DNA from: Neoroseomonas soli
Lineage (GTDB): Bacteria; Pseudomonadota; Alphaproteobacteria; Acetobacterales; Acetobacteraceae
NCBI RefSeq assembly: GCF_018129065.1
Contig: NZ_JAAEDM010000029.1
Span: 1 to 49,054 of the forward strand
Length of the DNA: 49,054 nucleotides
Reading direction: 5' to 3'
The notes below the pieces were generated by a model, which made no database searches, was not told where the DNA came from, and saw only the letters and a program-made list of their open reading frames with translations. Shown in pieces: positions 20,582 through 25,214 of this stretch (its first letter is position 1; each line of letters opens with the position of its first letter). A program made the position numbers and the translations under genes.

Positions 20582-21442
20582 ATGCGGCTGAGCCTCTTCT
20601 CCATCCTGGTTGCCGGCGGCCTGCTCGCAGCGCCCGCGATCCAGGCGCAGGCGCCAGCGCCGGCCCCGGCGGCCTCCGTGCCTCTCGGCCAGGCGCTGGA
20701 GGCGCGGCACCTGCTGGCGCACCGGGCAGCCTACCGGCTCAGCCTCTCCCGCGCGCGGGAACCGGGGAACATCGCCAACGCCCAGGGCGCGATGGTCTAT
20801 GAGATGGTGGACGCCTGCGACGGCTGGGCCTCCCGCCAGCGCTTCTCGCTGACGCTGACCGACCGCGACGGGACCGAGGTGGAGACAGCCTCGGACTACT
20901 CGACCTTCGAGACCAAGGACGGGCGCCGCCTGCGTTTCACCCTGACGCAGATGACGCAGGGTGCCGTCACCACCCGCGTCGCGGGAGAGGCGGAACTCGC
21001 CGCCGACGGCACGGGCGTGGTCCGCTACACCGAGCCCGAGGTGAAGGAGGAGCGGCTGCCCCCCGGCACGCTGCTGCCCAATATCCACACCCTCGCCACC
21101 CTCAACGCGGCGCGAGGCGGGCAGCGGCTGGTCGTGGCGCCGCTCTTCGACGGCACCTCGGCGGACGGGGCGCAGGACAGCACGACCGTGCTTTCGGCCT
21201 GGGAAGGCCCGCGGGAGGTGGCGGAGTTCCCGCTCCTTTCTCCGCTCGGCTCGGTGCGGATGCGCATCGCCTTCTTCGACCGCGACGCCCAGCAGCAGGG
21301 CGGGGGCGCGACGACGCCGTCCTACGAGGTTTCCCTGCGCTACTGGGAGAACGGCGTCGCCGACCAGATGCTGATGGACTTCCGTGAGTTCGTCGTGGAC
21401 GGCCGGATGGTGAAGCTCGAGGAACTGTCCGGCGGCTGCTGA
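20582..21442 (+). CDS. eipB: EipB-family periplasmic envelope-integrity protein (DUF1849)
   Basis: 286 residues with a signal peptide ending near IQAQ. DUF1849 features are clear: LLAHRAAYRLSLSRA, GAMVYEMVDACDGW, TASDYSTFETKDGRRLRF, LPPGTLLPNIHT and a final GGC. In Brucella EipB a spiral beta-structure is locked by one disulfide between an early and a C-terminal cysteine; here Cys79 and Cys286 are the only cysteines of the mature protein and match that pattern. EipB supports the alphaproteobacterial cell envelope. It sits 35 bases after aspS and 18 bases before an SMR efflux gene. Confidence 0.85.
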   Translation: MRLSLFSILVAGGLLAAPAIQAQAPAPAPAASVPLGQALEARHLLAHRAAYRLSLSRAREPGNIANAQGAMVYEMVDACDGWASRQRFSLTLTDRDGTEVETASDYSTFETKDGRRLRFTLTQMTQGAVTTRVAGEAELAADGTGVVRYTEPEVKEERLPPGTLLPNIHTLATLNAARGGQRLVVAPLFDGTSADGAQDSTTVLSAWEGPREVAEFPLLSPLGSVRMRIAFFDRDAQQQGGGATTPSYEVSLRYWENGVADQMLMDFREFVVDGRMVKLEELSGGC

Positions 21443-21460
21443 CGGCGGCTGGGGCCGGTC

Positions 21461-21790
21461 ATGACCTATCTCTATCTGACGATCGCGATCGTCGCGGAGG
21501 TCATCGCGACCTCGGCGCTGAAGGCTTCGGACGGTTTCGTCCGCCTGTGGCCGAGCGTGGTGACCGTGATCGGCTACGGCATCGCCTTCTATTTCCTGGC
21601 GCTCACGCTGCGCACCATCCCGACCGGCATCGCTTATGCGATCTGGTCGGGCGTCGGGATCGTGCTGATCTCGGCCGTCGGCTGGATCTGGTTCCGCCAG
21701 TCGCTGGATCTGCCGGCGATCATCGGCATGGTGCTGATCATCGCCGGCGTCCTGGTGGTGAACCTGTTCTCCAGATCGGCGGCCCACTGA
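21461..21790 (+). CDS. Small multidrug resistance (SMR) family transporter
   Basis: 109 residues and four transmembrane helices. The essential membrane-embedded glutamate is Glu13 (IAIVAEVIATSALK) and the conserved aromatic is Trp62 (GIAYAIWSGVGIV), equivalent to Glu14 and Trp63 of EmrE. It works as a proton-coupled dimer exporting quaternary cations or guanidinium-type compounds. The IPTGIAYAIWSG region favours an EmrE/QacE-like drug exporter over a guanidinium exporter, but this is not decisive. It lies 18 bases after eipB and converges on the family-5 binding-protein gene. Confidence 0.93.
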   Translation: MTYLYLTIAIVAEVIATSALKASDGFVRLWPSVVTVIGYGIAFYFLALTLRTIPTGIAYAIWSGVGIVLISAVGWIWFRQSLDLPAIIGMVLIIAGVLVVNLFSRSAAH

Positions 21791-21805
21791 ACCCGGGGCG
21801 CGTTG

Positions 21806-23383
21806 TCAGGCGCGCCTGAGGTTCCACACGAAGGGGTTCGGCCCCTGGAGCACGCCGGTCAGGTCGCTGCGGAAGGCCGTGCGCAGGCGGAACAGGCCGG
21901 TCGGCGCGAAGGGCACGGCATCCCACGCCAGTTCCTGCAGGCGCTGCATTGCGGCCGCCTGGGCCTCGGCATCGGTCGCCATGATCCAGGCCTCGACCTG
22001 TTCCTCGACGGCCGCATCCGTGGGCCAGCCCGGCCAGGCGGCCTGGCCGTTCATGCGGATCGCGAAGGACACCGCCGGGTTGGCGATCGTCGCCGCCGGC
22101 CCGTTCGTGTTGTGCAGGTTCCACCCACCCTGGGAAGGCGGGTTGCGGTTGCTGCGGCGCGCCAGGATCGAGGCCCAGTCGCTCTCCACCACCTGGATGT
22201 TGACGCCGAGGCGGCGCATCAGATCGACGGTCAGCCGCCCCTGCTGGGTCACGGCGTTGAAGTCGGACGGGTTGATGTGAACGATCGGCTCGCCGTTGTA
22301 GCCGGCCTCCCGCAGGGCGGCGCGGGCGCGATCCATCGCCTTCGGGCCGCGCCGGGCGGGTGGGAACTCGATGACGCCAGGCAGGCCGCAGGGGAACATG
22401 GCGTGGCATTCCTGCCAGTCTCCTTCGAGCGCGACGGAGGCCATGAAGTCCGGCTGCACGATCACGTCGCGGATGGCGCGGCGGACCCGCACGTCGTCGA
22501 AGGGCGGGTGGAGGTGGTTGAAGCGCAGGAAGCCGAGGAAGCCGTTCGGGTCGTAGATCTGCGTCCGCGTGTTGCGGTCGCGTTCGAGCACCGGCACGAG
22601 GTCGGGCAACGGGTATTCGATCCAGTCGATCTCCCCGGTGCGCAGCGCGGCCGCCGCGGTGCCGCCATCGGGGATCCACACGAGTTCCAGCCGGTCGAAA
22701 TGCACGCGCTTGCCCCCCGTCGCGCCTTCGGCCGGCTCGTCGCGCGGGACGTAGTCCTCGTTGCGGACGTACGCGCTGAGGCTGCCCTGTACGTACTCGC
22801 TGCCGACGAAGCGCCAGGGGCCGGAACCGATCATGTGCTCGACGCCGAGCGGCCGGTCGGCCGGGAGGGAGGCGATGCGCTCCGGCATCATGAAGCAGGG
22901 CGAGGACCCAGGCTTGGCCAGCGCGTCGAAGAGCGCGGGGAAGGGACGGTGCAGGCGGAACAGGATGGTGCGATCGTCCGCGGCGGCCAGTTCGGCGGTG
23001 GCGCGCAGCAGCACCTGGCCGAAGCCGTCCCTGCTGCCCCAGCGCCGGATCGAGGCGACGCAGTCGGCGGCGCGGACCGGCTCGCCATCATGCCAGCGCA
23101 GCCCGTCGCGCAGGCGGATGCGCACGGTGCGGCCATTGTCCTCGATGCTATGCCCTTCGGCCATCTGCGGGCGCGGATGCAGCGCTCGGTCCGCGCCGTA
23201 GAGCGTGTCGAAGACGCAATAGGCGTGGGTCGTGATGATGGTGCTCGGGCTGAACACCGGGTCCAGCGAGGCGAGCGCCGCCTGCGGCACGAAGCGCAGG
23301 GTGCGTGCGCGGGCGGGCTGGGCTGCAACGGGCCGCGCGAAGGGCGTGGCGATGGCGGTGGCGAGCAGCGTGCGGCGATGCAT
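21806..23383 (-). CDS. Family-5 ABC transporter substrate-binding protein, TPP-riboswitch controlled
   Basis: 525 residues with an export signal (HRRTLLATAIATPFARPVAA). The SBP_bac_5 fold is evident: SLDPVFSPSTIITTHAYCVF, IRLRDGLRWHDGEPVRAADC, a GSGPWRFVG segment, and VRRAIRDVIVQPDFM. These receptors normally bind peptides, opines or metal chelates for a Dpp/Opp-type importer. No permease or ATPase gene is nearby. Uniquely in this window it has a canonical TPP riboswitch upstream (23488-23578), pointing to a ligand linked to thiamine. A purine-rich GGGGGAA precedes the start. Ligand assignment is inference. Confidence 0.9.
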   Translation of the reverse strand: MHRRTLLATAIATPFARPVAAQPARARTLRFVPQAALASLDPVFSPSTIITTHAYCVFDTLYGADRALHPRPQMAEGHSIEDNGRTVRIRLRDGLRWHDGEPVRAADCVASIRRWGSRDGFGQVLLRATAELAAADDRTILFRLHRPFPALFDALAKPGSSPCFMMPERIASLPADRPLGVEHMIGSGPWRFVGSEYVQGSLSAYVRNEDYVPRDEPAEGATGGKRVHFDRLELVWIPDGGTAAAALRTGEIDWIEYPLPDLVPVLERDRNTRTQIYDPNGFLGFLRFNHLHPPFDDVRVRRAIRDVIVQPDFMASVALEGDWQECHAMFPCGLPGVIEFPPARRGPKAMDRARAALREAGYNGEPIVHINPSDFNAVTQQGRLTVDLMRRLGVNIQVVESDWASILARRSNRNPPSQGGWNLHNTNGPAATIANPAVSFAIRMNGQAAWPGWPTDAAVEEQVEAWIMATDAEAQAAAMQRLQELAWDAVPFAPTGLFRLRTAFRSDLTGVLQGPNPFVWNLRRA

Positions 23384-23487
23384 TCGTCATTCCCCCAAAT
23401 CGGCGTGGAGGACGGGACCCGGGCGTGACCGCGCGCGCATCCCTGCGCATGACGGCGCATGGAATCCGGGCGCGGACGAACGGGTGG

Positions 23488-23578
23488 CACCGTTCCCTTC
23501 GCCGGTCCGAACCGGATCAGGTTCCATGGGTCGCGGGTGAAGCCCGCCTCTCAGCCCCCGATGGGGCTCCCCAAGGTG
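23488..23578 (-). promoter_or_regulatory. TPP (THI-box) riboswitch
   Basis: Reading the minus strand, the core elements come in the proper order: CACC (23578-23575) opening P1, GGGGAGCC of P2, GGCTGAGA (CTGAGA at 23554-23549), a variable GC-rich P3 arm, ACCTGATC (23522-23515), the P5 arm, GAAGGGAA (23500-23493), and GGTG closing P1 (23491-23488). These are the thiamine pyrophosphate aptamer signatures. The aptamer ends 104 bases before the start of the family-5 binding-protein gene; that leader must hold the expression platform, but I cannot tell whether it stops transcription or translation. A weak promoter candidate (TTGCAC at 23616-23611) lies just upstream. Confidence 0.92.
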
Positions 23579-23678
23579 TCCGGGGCCTACATGCGCCCGG
23601 TGGGGTCCGAGTGCAAGCGCTGGGCCGGGCGTGGTGCTGCCGCTACAGTCCTGGCAGGGACCGTCCAGGGAAGCCGCC

Positions 23679-25214
23679 ATGAGCAGCACGACACTCTCCC
23701 CCGTGATCCGCCTGCATCCGGAGGACGGGGTGGTGATCGCCCGTTCCGTGCTGGTGCCGGGCACGGAGGTGGCGCCGGGCGTCACCGTCGGCGCGCGGCG
23801 CATCCCCGCCGGGCACAAGGTCGCGGTGCGCCCGCACGCGAAGGGGGAGCCGATCCGCCGCTACGGCCAGATCATCGGCTTCGCGACGGATTCCATCGAC
23901 CCCGGCGCCTGGGTCCACACCCATAACTGCGAGATGGGCGACTTCGCCCGCGACTACGCCTGGGGCGTGGACGCGAAGCCGACGCAGCACGTCGATGCGC
24001 CCGCGAGTTTCATGGGCATCCGCCGCGCCGATGGGCGCGCGGCGACACGCAACTACATCGGCATCGTCACCAGCGTGAACTGCTCGGCGCACGTGGCGGA
24101 GCTGATCGCCCGGCAGTTCGAGCGCAATCCGATCACCGGGCATGACCCGCTGGCGGAATGGGGGAACGTCGACGGCGTGGTGGCGCTGACGCACAAGACC
24201 GGCTGCGGCATGACGATGGACGAGCCGCTGCGCGTGCTCCGCCGCACGCTCGCGGGCTTCGCGCGCCATGCGAATTTCTCCCACGTCATCGCCATCGGCC
24301 TCGGCTGCGAGGTGAACCAGCTCGGCCCGATGCTGGAGGAGCAGAAGCTTTCCGGCCGGCTGCGGAGCATGGACATCCAGGACAGCGGCGGTTCGCGCGC
24401 CACCGTGCTGAAGGGCATGGACTTCGTGAAGGAGGTGCTGGCGGAAGCCAACGCCGTCACGCGCGTGCCCGTGCCGGCAAGCGAGTTGTGCGTCGCGCTG
24501 CAATGCGGCGGGTCGGACGGGTATTCGGGCATCACGGCGAACCCGGCGCTGGGTGCGGCCTCGGACCTGCTGGTGCGGCATGGGGGCACGGTGATCCTGT
24601 CGGAATCGCCCGAGACCTACGGCGCGGAACACCTGCTGACGCGCCGCGCGGTCTCGCAGGAGGTCGGGCAGAAGCTCGTCGACGTGATGAAGTGGTGGGA
24701 GGACTACACGGCGCGCGAGGGTGCGGAGATGAACGCCAACCCCTCGCCGGGCAACAAGGCGGGCGGGCTGACGACCATCCTCGAGAAGTCGCTCGGCGCC
24801 ATGGCGAAGGCGGGCACGACCAACCTGGTCGATGTCTATCGCTATGCCGAGCCGGTCACCGCCAAGGGCTTCGTCTTCATGGACACGCCAGGCTACGATC
24901 CCGTCGCCGCGACGGGCCAGGTGGCGGGCGGGGCGAACCTCGTCTGCTTCACCACAGGGCGCGGATCGGTCTTCGGGATGAAGCCGGCGCCCTCGATCAA
25001 GCTCGCGACCAATTCCGCGATGCATGAGCGGCTGTCCGAGGACATGGACATCAACTGCGGCACGATCGTCAGCGGGCAGGAGAGCGTGGAGCAGTGCGGC
25101 CAGCGCATCTTCGACCTCATGCTGCGCACCGCCTCGGGCGAACGCACCAAGAGCGAGGCCATGGGCTTCGGCGCGCAGGAATTCGCGCCCTGGGTGCTCG
25201 GGGCGACGATGTGA
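23679..25214 (+). CDS. UxaA-family dehydratase (altronate/galactarate dehydratase-like)
   Basis: 511 residues. An N-terminal SAF domain (IRLHPEDGVVIARS to THNCEMGDFARDYAWG) is fused to the full catalytic part, as in UxaA and GarD, which remove water from sugar acids using iron. Conserved pieces: RRADGRAATRNYIGIVTSV, LTHKTGCGM, IGLGCEVNQ, LQCGGSDGYSGITANPALG, ILSESPETYGAEHLL and FTTGRGSVFGMKPAPSIKLA. The start at 23679 gives the normal N-terminus. A small membrane gene and a class II aldolase gene follow with overlaps, suggesting a sugar-acid catabolic operon. The substrate (altronate, galactarate or another) cannot be fixed. Confidence 0.9.
   Translation: MSSTTLSPVIRLHPEDGVVIARSVLVPGTEVAPGVTVGARRIPAGHKVAVRPHAKGEPIRRYGQIIGFATDSIDPGAWVHTHNCEMGDFARDYAWGVDAKPTQHVDAPASFMGIRRADGRAATRNYIGIVTSVNCSAHVAELIARQFERNPITGHDPLAEWGNVDGVVALTHKTGCGMTMDEPLRVLRRTLAGFARHANFSHVIAIGLGCEVNQLGPMLEEQKLSGRLRSMDIQDSGGSRATVLKGMDFVKEVLAEANAVTRVPVPASELCVALQCGGSDGYSGITANPALGAASDLLVRHGGTVILSESPETYGAEHLLTRRAVSQEVGQKLVDVMKWWEDYTAREGAEMNANPSPGNKAGGLTTILEKSLGAMAKAGTTNLVDVYRYAEPVTAKGFVFMDTPGYDPVAATGQVAGGANLVCFTTGRGSVFGMKPAPSIKLATNSAMHERLSEDMDINCGTIVSGQESVEQCGQRIFDLMLRTASGERTKSEAMGFGAQEFAPWVLGATM

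Follow-up and report, generated by a model that had tools for sequence, protein, structure and literature searches.

What does a solute-binding protein of family 5 capture when its gene lies behind a thiamine pyrophosphate (TPP) riboswitch and no permease gene adjoins it? The question is posed by a locus of Neoroseomonas soli (contig NZ_JAAEDM010000029.1), which was analysed within a stretch of 49,054 nucleotides, hereafter termed the window. A first-pass annotation of this DNA had described a canonical TPP aptamer at positions 23488-23578 (minus strand) with only one gene behind it, encoding a 525-residue SBP_bac_5 protein without a linked permease, and had proposed that the protein may serve as a receptor of thiamine, of one of its precursors or breakdown products, or of a thiamine-containing conjugate. 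TPP-regulated transporters of vitamin B1 are of the ThiBPQ, ThiXYZ, YkoEDC, ThiT, ThiV, CytX, PnuT, ThiPerm and Omr1 types and, to our knowledge, no family-5 receptor is among them. Table 1B of PMC10881298 gives thiB, thiT, thiY, thiV, cytX, ykoF, thiPerm and omr1 as B1 transport genes, and the accessible part of PMC3766115 puts the number of transporter ortholog groups controlled by TPP riboswitches at 19. A literature search covering few subscription journals returned no case of a TPP riboswitch paired with a family-5 or peptide receptor, and no TPP-controlled family-5 receptor was found in the available excerpts of PMC3284542, PMC12452182 and PMC12442306.

The TPP aptamer and the receptor gene

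The covariance-model check proposed in the first-pass annotation was performed with Rfam cmscan and placed the aptamer, slightly extended, at 23476-23583 (minus strand). RF00059 was matched over its full length (model positions 1-105) with 68 bits, above the gathering score of 54.3, and an E-value of 2.4e-11. This is the sole Rfam match within the window and the one TPP riboswitch match found in the genome (5.24 Mb, 99.3% complete). Over 48 distinct ortholog leaders, taken from the survey described below, the aptamer helices covary, with 97.9% of cells paired and seven pairs changed on both sides; none of 500 shuffles scored as high, in an alignment that was fitted to a custom model (R1) and leans towards the structure, and with related sequences that can exceed shuffles. 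Model R1 was built from 24 sequences, 17 of which are the window and 16 ortholog loci. Since its helices covary among orthologs the aptamer is not a chance match, and a real, well conserved TPP aptamer is thus confirmed.

The aptamer is separated by 92 bases from the ATG of the receptor gene, which extends over 21806-23383 (minus strand, stop codon included) and encodes 525 residues. SBP_bac_5 (PF00496) is the only Pfam family matched by the protein, with 192.6 bits against a cut-off of 32.4, and the N-terminus, judged by eye, resembles a signal peptide. Downstream, the transcript is bounded by a convergent gene of the small multidrug resistance family (21461-21790, plus strand; PF00893), while a divergent gene of the altronate/galactarate dehydratase family (23679-25214, plus strand; PF20629 and PF04295) lies upstream; both are outside the unit. 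With one neighbour convergent and the other divergent, the transcript should carry the receptor gene alone, in agreement with the single gene described previously behind the aptamer.

Predicted control of the receptor gene

A terminator-type expression platform was considered and rejected, as no terminator-like site was detected on the minus strand over 21400-23900. Since none lies between the aptamer and the start codon, repression is probably exerted by hiding the ribosome-binding site. Reading of the leader identified a candidate Shine-Dalgarno sequence, GGGGGA (23391-23396, minus strand), 7 nt before the ATG, and a candidate anti-Shine-Dalgarno arm, TCCTCC (23407-23412, minus strand), which pairs with GGGGGA in a fold of the leader from which the aptamer is left out. 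In that fold the Shine-Dalgarno site is 2% unpaired. When the whole leader is folded, TCCTCC pairs with the 3' end of the aptamer (23493-23497) and the Shine-Dalgarno site is 30% unpaired. The switch logic modelled from this one sequence with one energy model is that the formed aptamer would free the anti-Shine-Dalgarno arm to hide the ribosome-binding site.

The pairing probability of the Shine-Dalgarno site in ortholog leaders has a mean of 0.81 versus 0.70 in shuffled leaders (12 of 51 leaders at 0.1 or less), and the energy of the Shine-Dalgarno/anti-Shine-Dalgarno duplex lies beyond the shuffle median in 28 of 32 leaders (5/32 at 0.05 or less), for which a sign test that ignores relatedness gives 2e-5. 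The short anti-Shine-Dalgarno hairpin is less stable than shuffles in the window (z 0.86), more stable at L083 (z -2.33) and level with them at L090 (z -0.30), and the window leader as a whole does not exceed its shuffles in stability (z -0.67). Translational control of the receptor is therefore rated likely but weakly supported by these folding models.

Conservation of the riboswitch-receptor pairing

Relatives of the receptor protein were searched for in one genome per species over 84,980 species, and the best 80 of 89 relatives gave 79 loci (L062-L140). Among the matches listed, 72 loci (L062-L133) encode orthologs displaying 70-91% identity to the receptor, of which the nearest named one is from N. 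nitratireducens (91%), and seven loci (L134-L140) encode paralogs of 42-46% identity. In a quick maximum-likelihood tree of 103 rows, a branch with an SH-aLRT of 99 splits 71 ortholog rows, in which the window protein is counted twice, from 32 paralog rows, some with flagged long branches.

A conserved upstream riboswitch, as expected of a TPP-regulated transporter of B1 or a vitamer, was found in 56 of 69 evaluable orthologs at the Rfam gathering score, in each case immediately upstream of the receptor gene; L097, L124 and L133, where the contig begins at or near the gene, were excluded. Model R1 adds L086, L091 and L094, raising the count to 59/69. These three aptamers fall under the Rfam cut-off despite the presence of the core motifs, and an insertion near the CTGAGA core is seen in the Roseococcus-type aptamers (L084, L086, L088, L089, L091 and L094). 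The aptamer-bearing orthologs comprise ten named genera of Acetobacteraceae (Neoroseomonas, Roseomonas, Rhodovarius, Roseococcus, Rubritepida, Roseicella, Siccirubricoccus, Crenalkalicoccus, Plastoroseomonas and Paracraurococcus), plus metagenome bins with doubtful labels. Within Neoroseomonas the aptamer directly precedes the ortholog in 33 of 35 genomes (G000-G034); of the two exceptions, the aptamer of G006 lies at the edge of a contig, and no TPP match was obtained in G017 (85% complete). A sample of 200 genomes of the family contained the ortholog (at least 61% identity) in 27, with the aptamer directly upstream in 22 of these; orthologs without it are those of G082, G169, G178 and G228 and a fragment in G146, and in one pass linking aptamer and receptor in this sample, tighter filtering caused some weak matches to be missed.

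The ten evaluable orthologs without an aptamer (L109, L110, L112, L115, L116, L117, L120, L123, L127 and L130) belong to Roseicella, Paeniroseomonas, Belnapia, Paracraurococcus and Siccirubricoccus, and none of the seven paralog loci has an aptamer. A relaxed search (E up to 10) of 27 loci, comprising these ten orthologs and 17 paralog loci (the seven above plus ten more), gave scores all below 10 bits. On the tree, aptamer absence requires at least three changes, counted over nine aptamer-less rows that do not include L130. At L130 (Siccirubricoccus sp. G192) the receptor gene, which has no aptamer, is not open throughout, with five stops in the stretch examined.

The homologue survey suggested in the first-pass annotation thus upholds the pairing in most orthologs, none with an adjacent permease, and departs from it in 10 of 69. 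That annotation had also named homologues lacking the riboswitch and linked to peptide or opine operons as evidence against its proposal. Such a description fits in part the 42-46% paralogs, all of which lack the aptamer and six of seven of which stand before a DppB-type permease, and it applies only outside the ortholog clade. The repeated absence of the aptamer, with the gene itself not lost, is what would be expected if the aptamer were a remnant of some earlier TPP regulon, such as that of ThiXYZ or thiC, and preceded the receptor only incidentally. Against this, paired and covarying helices are kept over receptors of 70-91% identity and ten named genera, and the aptamer is retained at ortholog loci while the neighbouring genes change, making an incidental placement very improbable.

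Neighbouring genes and a possible shared permease

The lack of a linked permease noted previously extends well beyond the window, where none adjoins the receptor gene. Dpp-type and ThiX/ThiZ queries were compared with the called genes in flanks of up to 6 kb, shorter in small contigs, and revealed no adjacent permease homologue at any of the 72 ortholog loci; the dppBCDF-type linkage of dipeptide and oligopeptide receptors was likewise not found there. A permease homologue anywhere in these flanks occurs at one locus only (L111), more than 5 kb away and on the opposite strand, and ATPase homologues lie near the receptors of L114, L127, L128 and the window, none of them adjacent. Of the 70 ortholog loci for which a gene was called, L110 and L133 being left out, 59 have a downstream gene on the opposite strand and 9 have one on the same strand; in the other 2 the next gene lies beyond the contig. 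As conserved operon partners, a Uma2 gene behind the receptor (L099 and L113, one of them checked), a histidine kinase (L086) and a second family-5 receptor (L128) were each rejected as isolated cases. The last of these, in Plastoroseomonas hellenica (L128:7544-9220), is a distant family-5 receptor that begins 41 bases after the riboswitch-controlled one and may be on the same transcript.

The paralog loci display a different arrangement. In six loci of the Roseomonas group (L134-L139), three or four tandem family-5 receptors precede one DppB-type permease, which in L138 and L139 is followed by DppC and an ATPase; the three tandem receptors of L138 (5989-13536) were confirmed as family 5 by Pfam. 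Tandem receptors before a single permease indicate that this receptor subfamily may share one permease and, by analogy, the riboswitch-controlled receptor is inferred to work through a shared Dpp/Opp-type permease encoded elsewhere. The literature search returned no report of orphan receptors sharing a permease.

Of 70 ortholog loci, 37, from several genera, have a gene related to the divergent altronate/galactarate dehydratase-type gene close to the receptor, and in 28 it is directly adjacent. This proximity is probably old synteny, and the two may also be functionally linked. It is a point in favour of a receptor that imports another ligand connected with TPP status, for example a sugar acid processed by the divergent dehydratase, or else a peptide or opine, as is the annotation of family 5 for peptides, nickel and opines. 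Against such a ligand, 25 of the 59 aptamer-bearing loci have no dehydratase-type gene in the stretch covered, which includes some short contigs, and the receptor sequence departs from the characterised families, as described below; this reading is accordingly considered improbable.

Clues to the ligand in the receptor sequence

Nine NCBIfam families match the receptor at E 0.001, all with scores far below the equivalog cut-offs. The best of these is GsiB (83.7 bits against a cut-off of 594), while DppA (36.9 against 1005) and OppA (34.6 against 947) score lower, and no ThiB model is among the nine. The nearest solved chain is that of a bacterial extracellular solute-binding protein (PDB code 8vdx; E 1.3e-108), and the single paper returned for this code seems to concern another subject. 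In the one alignment viewed, a low-scoring HMMER alignment near the end of which the position falls, the peptide-anchoring Asp of OppA (Asp419, the residue binding the peptide N-terminus) is not kept and is faced by Asn425. Leu423, His424, Asn425 and Asn427 are invariant across 33 ortholog rows, and none of them occurs in 7 paralog rows. These residues are also kept in six of the ten aptamer-less orthologs, those six being the ones present in the protein alignment (A2). The Asn facing Asp419 and the ortholog-specific columns count, without proof, against the protein being an ordinary peptide receptor.

Family-5 receptors typically have large pockets and bind larger ligands, and the thiamine pyrimidine HMP is small for such a pocket. 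This is one of the points favouring thiamine itself or its phosphates as the ligand, in which case the family-5 protein would play a part like that of ThiB.

The thiamine pathway in Neoroseomonas and its relatives

The pathway was surveyed in 34 Neoroseomonas genomes, host included. ThiC was found in four (G001, G020, G021 and G032), which are exactly the Neoroseomonas genomes with two TPP riboswitches, the second preceding thiC in each, and was not found in the other 30, among them the single-contig genome G010. ThiG is present in all 34, as is the ThiE family (with a weak match in G005), and ThiD is above its cut-off in 33 and below it in G005. Members of the TENA_THI-4 family were detected in 32/34, sorted into subfamilies in the host (G000) only; of its two members one is PqqC and the other, beside a cysteine-desulfurase-like gene, reaches 126.4, under the TenA cut-off of 130. 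The gene calls display no transporter gene beside either. Thiamine pyrophosphokinase (TPK) was found in 0/34 genomes.

With ThiC undetected and ThiG, ThiE and ThiD detected, a typical member of the genus should make the thiazole, join it to the pyrimidine and need the pyrimidine from outside. Judged from gene content, most Neoroseomonas look like pyrimidine (HMP) auxotrophs whose sole detected TPP-regulated gene is the receptor, and this gap gives the receptor a job. The pathway data therefore favour the pyrimidine half of the vitamin over the thiazole.

In the family sample, ThiC is present in 15 of the 22 genomes with the riboswitch-receptor unit; the remaining seven (G000, G004, G102, G177, which is 80% complete, G181, G198 and G244) have one TPP match each. 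Pyrimidine hunger thus cannot be the sole reason to keep the receptor, and the 15 ThiC-positive genomes, together with the large pockets of the family, keep thiamine and its phosphates among the candidate ligands. In addition, imported thiamine monophosphate could be used by ThiL. On the other side, the gap shared by the congeners is that of ThiC and, as TPK was detected in none of the 34, free thiamine would have no known one-step route to TPP there. Uptake of thiamine or its phosphates is, on balance, unlikely, if more probable than that of a sugar acid, peptide or opine.

The targets of TPP riboswitches were viewed in 29 of the 56 ThiC-less genomes of the family sample. The target is the present receptor in seven, a ThiXYZ-type operon in at least 12 and a TonB-type receptor in at least four, six genomes (G087, G098, G128, G173, G193 and G235) having no assigned target. 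The ThiXYZ-type operon comprises an ATPase, a permease and an NMT1/THI5 receptor (one full operon and one further receptor were checked by Pfam), and the TonB-type targets were assigned by like length and place, with one checked by Pfam. At L193, L194, L195 and L204, from ThiC-less Acetobacteraceae, the riboswitch precedes a TonB-type receptor gene and a gene of ~310-320 residues. None of the 12 genomes with a ThiXYZ-type operon has an ortholog of the present receptor. A ThiY query found proteins of only 25-33% identity in 31 of 34 Neoroseomonas genomes and none at E 1e-10 in the other three, compared with 64-84% identity to 11 other riboswitch-linked ThiY proteins. From this distribution the family-5 receptor looks like a replacement of ThiXYZ, but the pattern follows lineages.

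Proposed function

The aptamer linkage, the orphan loci and the ThiC gap support the protein as the candidate receptor that was first proposed, and its ligand is probably a B1 vitamer of some kind. We consider it somewhat probable that the locus encodes a TPP-repressed, stand-alone periplasmic receptor for such a vitamer, most likely a pyrimidine. When TPP is plentiful it would bind the leader aptamer and, repression being presumed, receptor synthesis would be shut off; when TPP falls the receptor would be made and would capture the vitamer in the periplasm. The loaded receptor would then pass its ligand to a Dpp/Opp-type permease whose genes lie elsewhere and which also serves other family-5 receptors. 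Given that the host genome yielded ThiG, ThiE, ThiD and a TenA-like protein but no ThiC, the most likely vitamer there is one bearing the pyrimidine moiety, be it HMP, the aminopyrimidine AmMP or formylaminopyrimidine (FAMP).

A broader proposal, put forward tentatively and with rather less than even confidence, is that these proteins form a new class of B1-salvage receptor, in which a TPP-controlled orphan family-5 protein redirects a shared Dpp/Opp-type permease to HMP, AmMP or FAMP and replaces ThiXYZ in part of the Acetobacteraceae. If so, the annotation of B1 auxotrophy in these genera would change, and uptake would be under vitamin control through the receptor alone. The riboswitch-tagged receptor is in any case a concrete protein to test for vitamer import. 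The importers of FAMP and AmMP are posed as an open question in the accessible text of PMC10470507, and the receptor could be one of those missing.

Comparison with known systems

ThiXYZ, which serves pyrimidine salvage, is likewise an ABC uptake system with a receptor under a TPP riboswitch and fills the same slot in at least 12 related ThiC-less genomes. It differs in that ThiY belongs to the NMT1/THI5 family (PF09084) and has its own permease and ATPase in the operon, while the present receptor matches PF00496 alone and is an orphan, lacking both the NMT1/THI5-type family assignment and the linked ThiX/ThiZ of such systems. ThiB of ThiBPQ is a periplasmic B1 receptor, to whose NCBIfam model no match was obtained at E 0.001. 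GsiB, DppA, OppA and NikA share family PF00496 with the receptor, GsiB being the closest in NCBIfam; this is in contrast with the absence of a linked dpp operon, the Asn that faces the peptide-anchoring Asp in the low-scoring alignment and the TPP riboswitch of the receptor described here. ThiV is treated in the available part of PMC11452348 as the HMP importer of SAR11. The closest parallel in regulation is from C. difficile, where, according to the accessible portion of PMC11477304, a TPP riboswitch precedes an ABC operon of unknown specificity, described as showing no homology to the B1 transporters already known. That system is a complete ABC operon of another phylum, whereas the TPP riboswitch of Neoroseomonas soli precedes a lone receptor.
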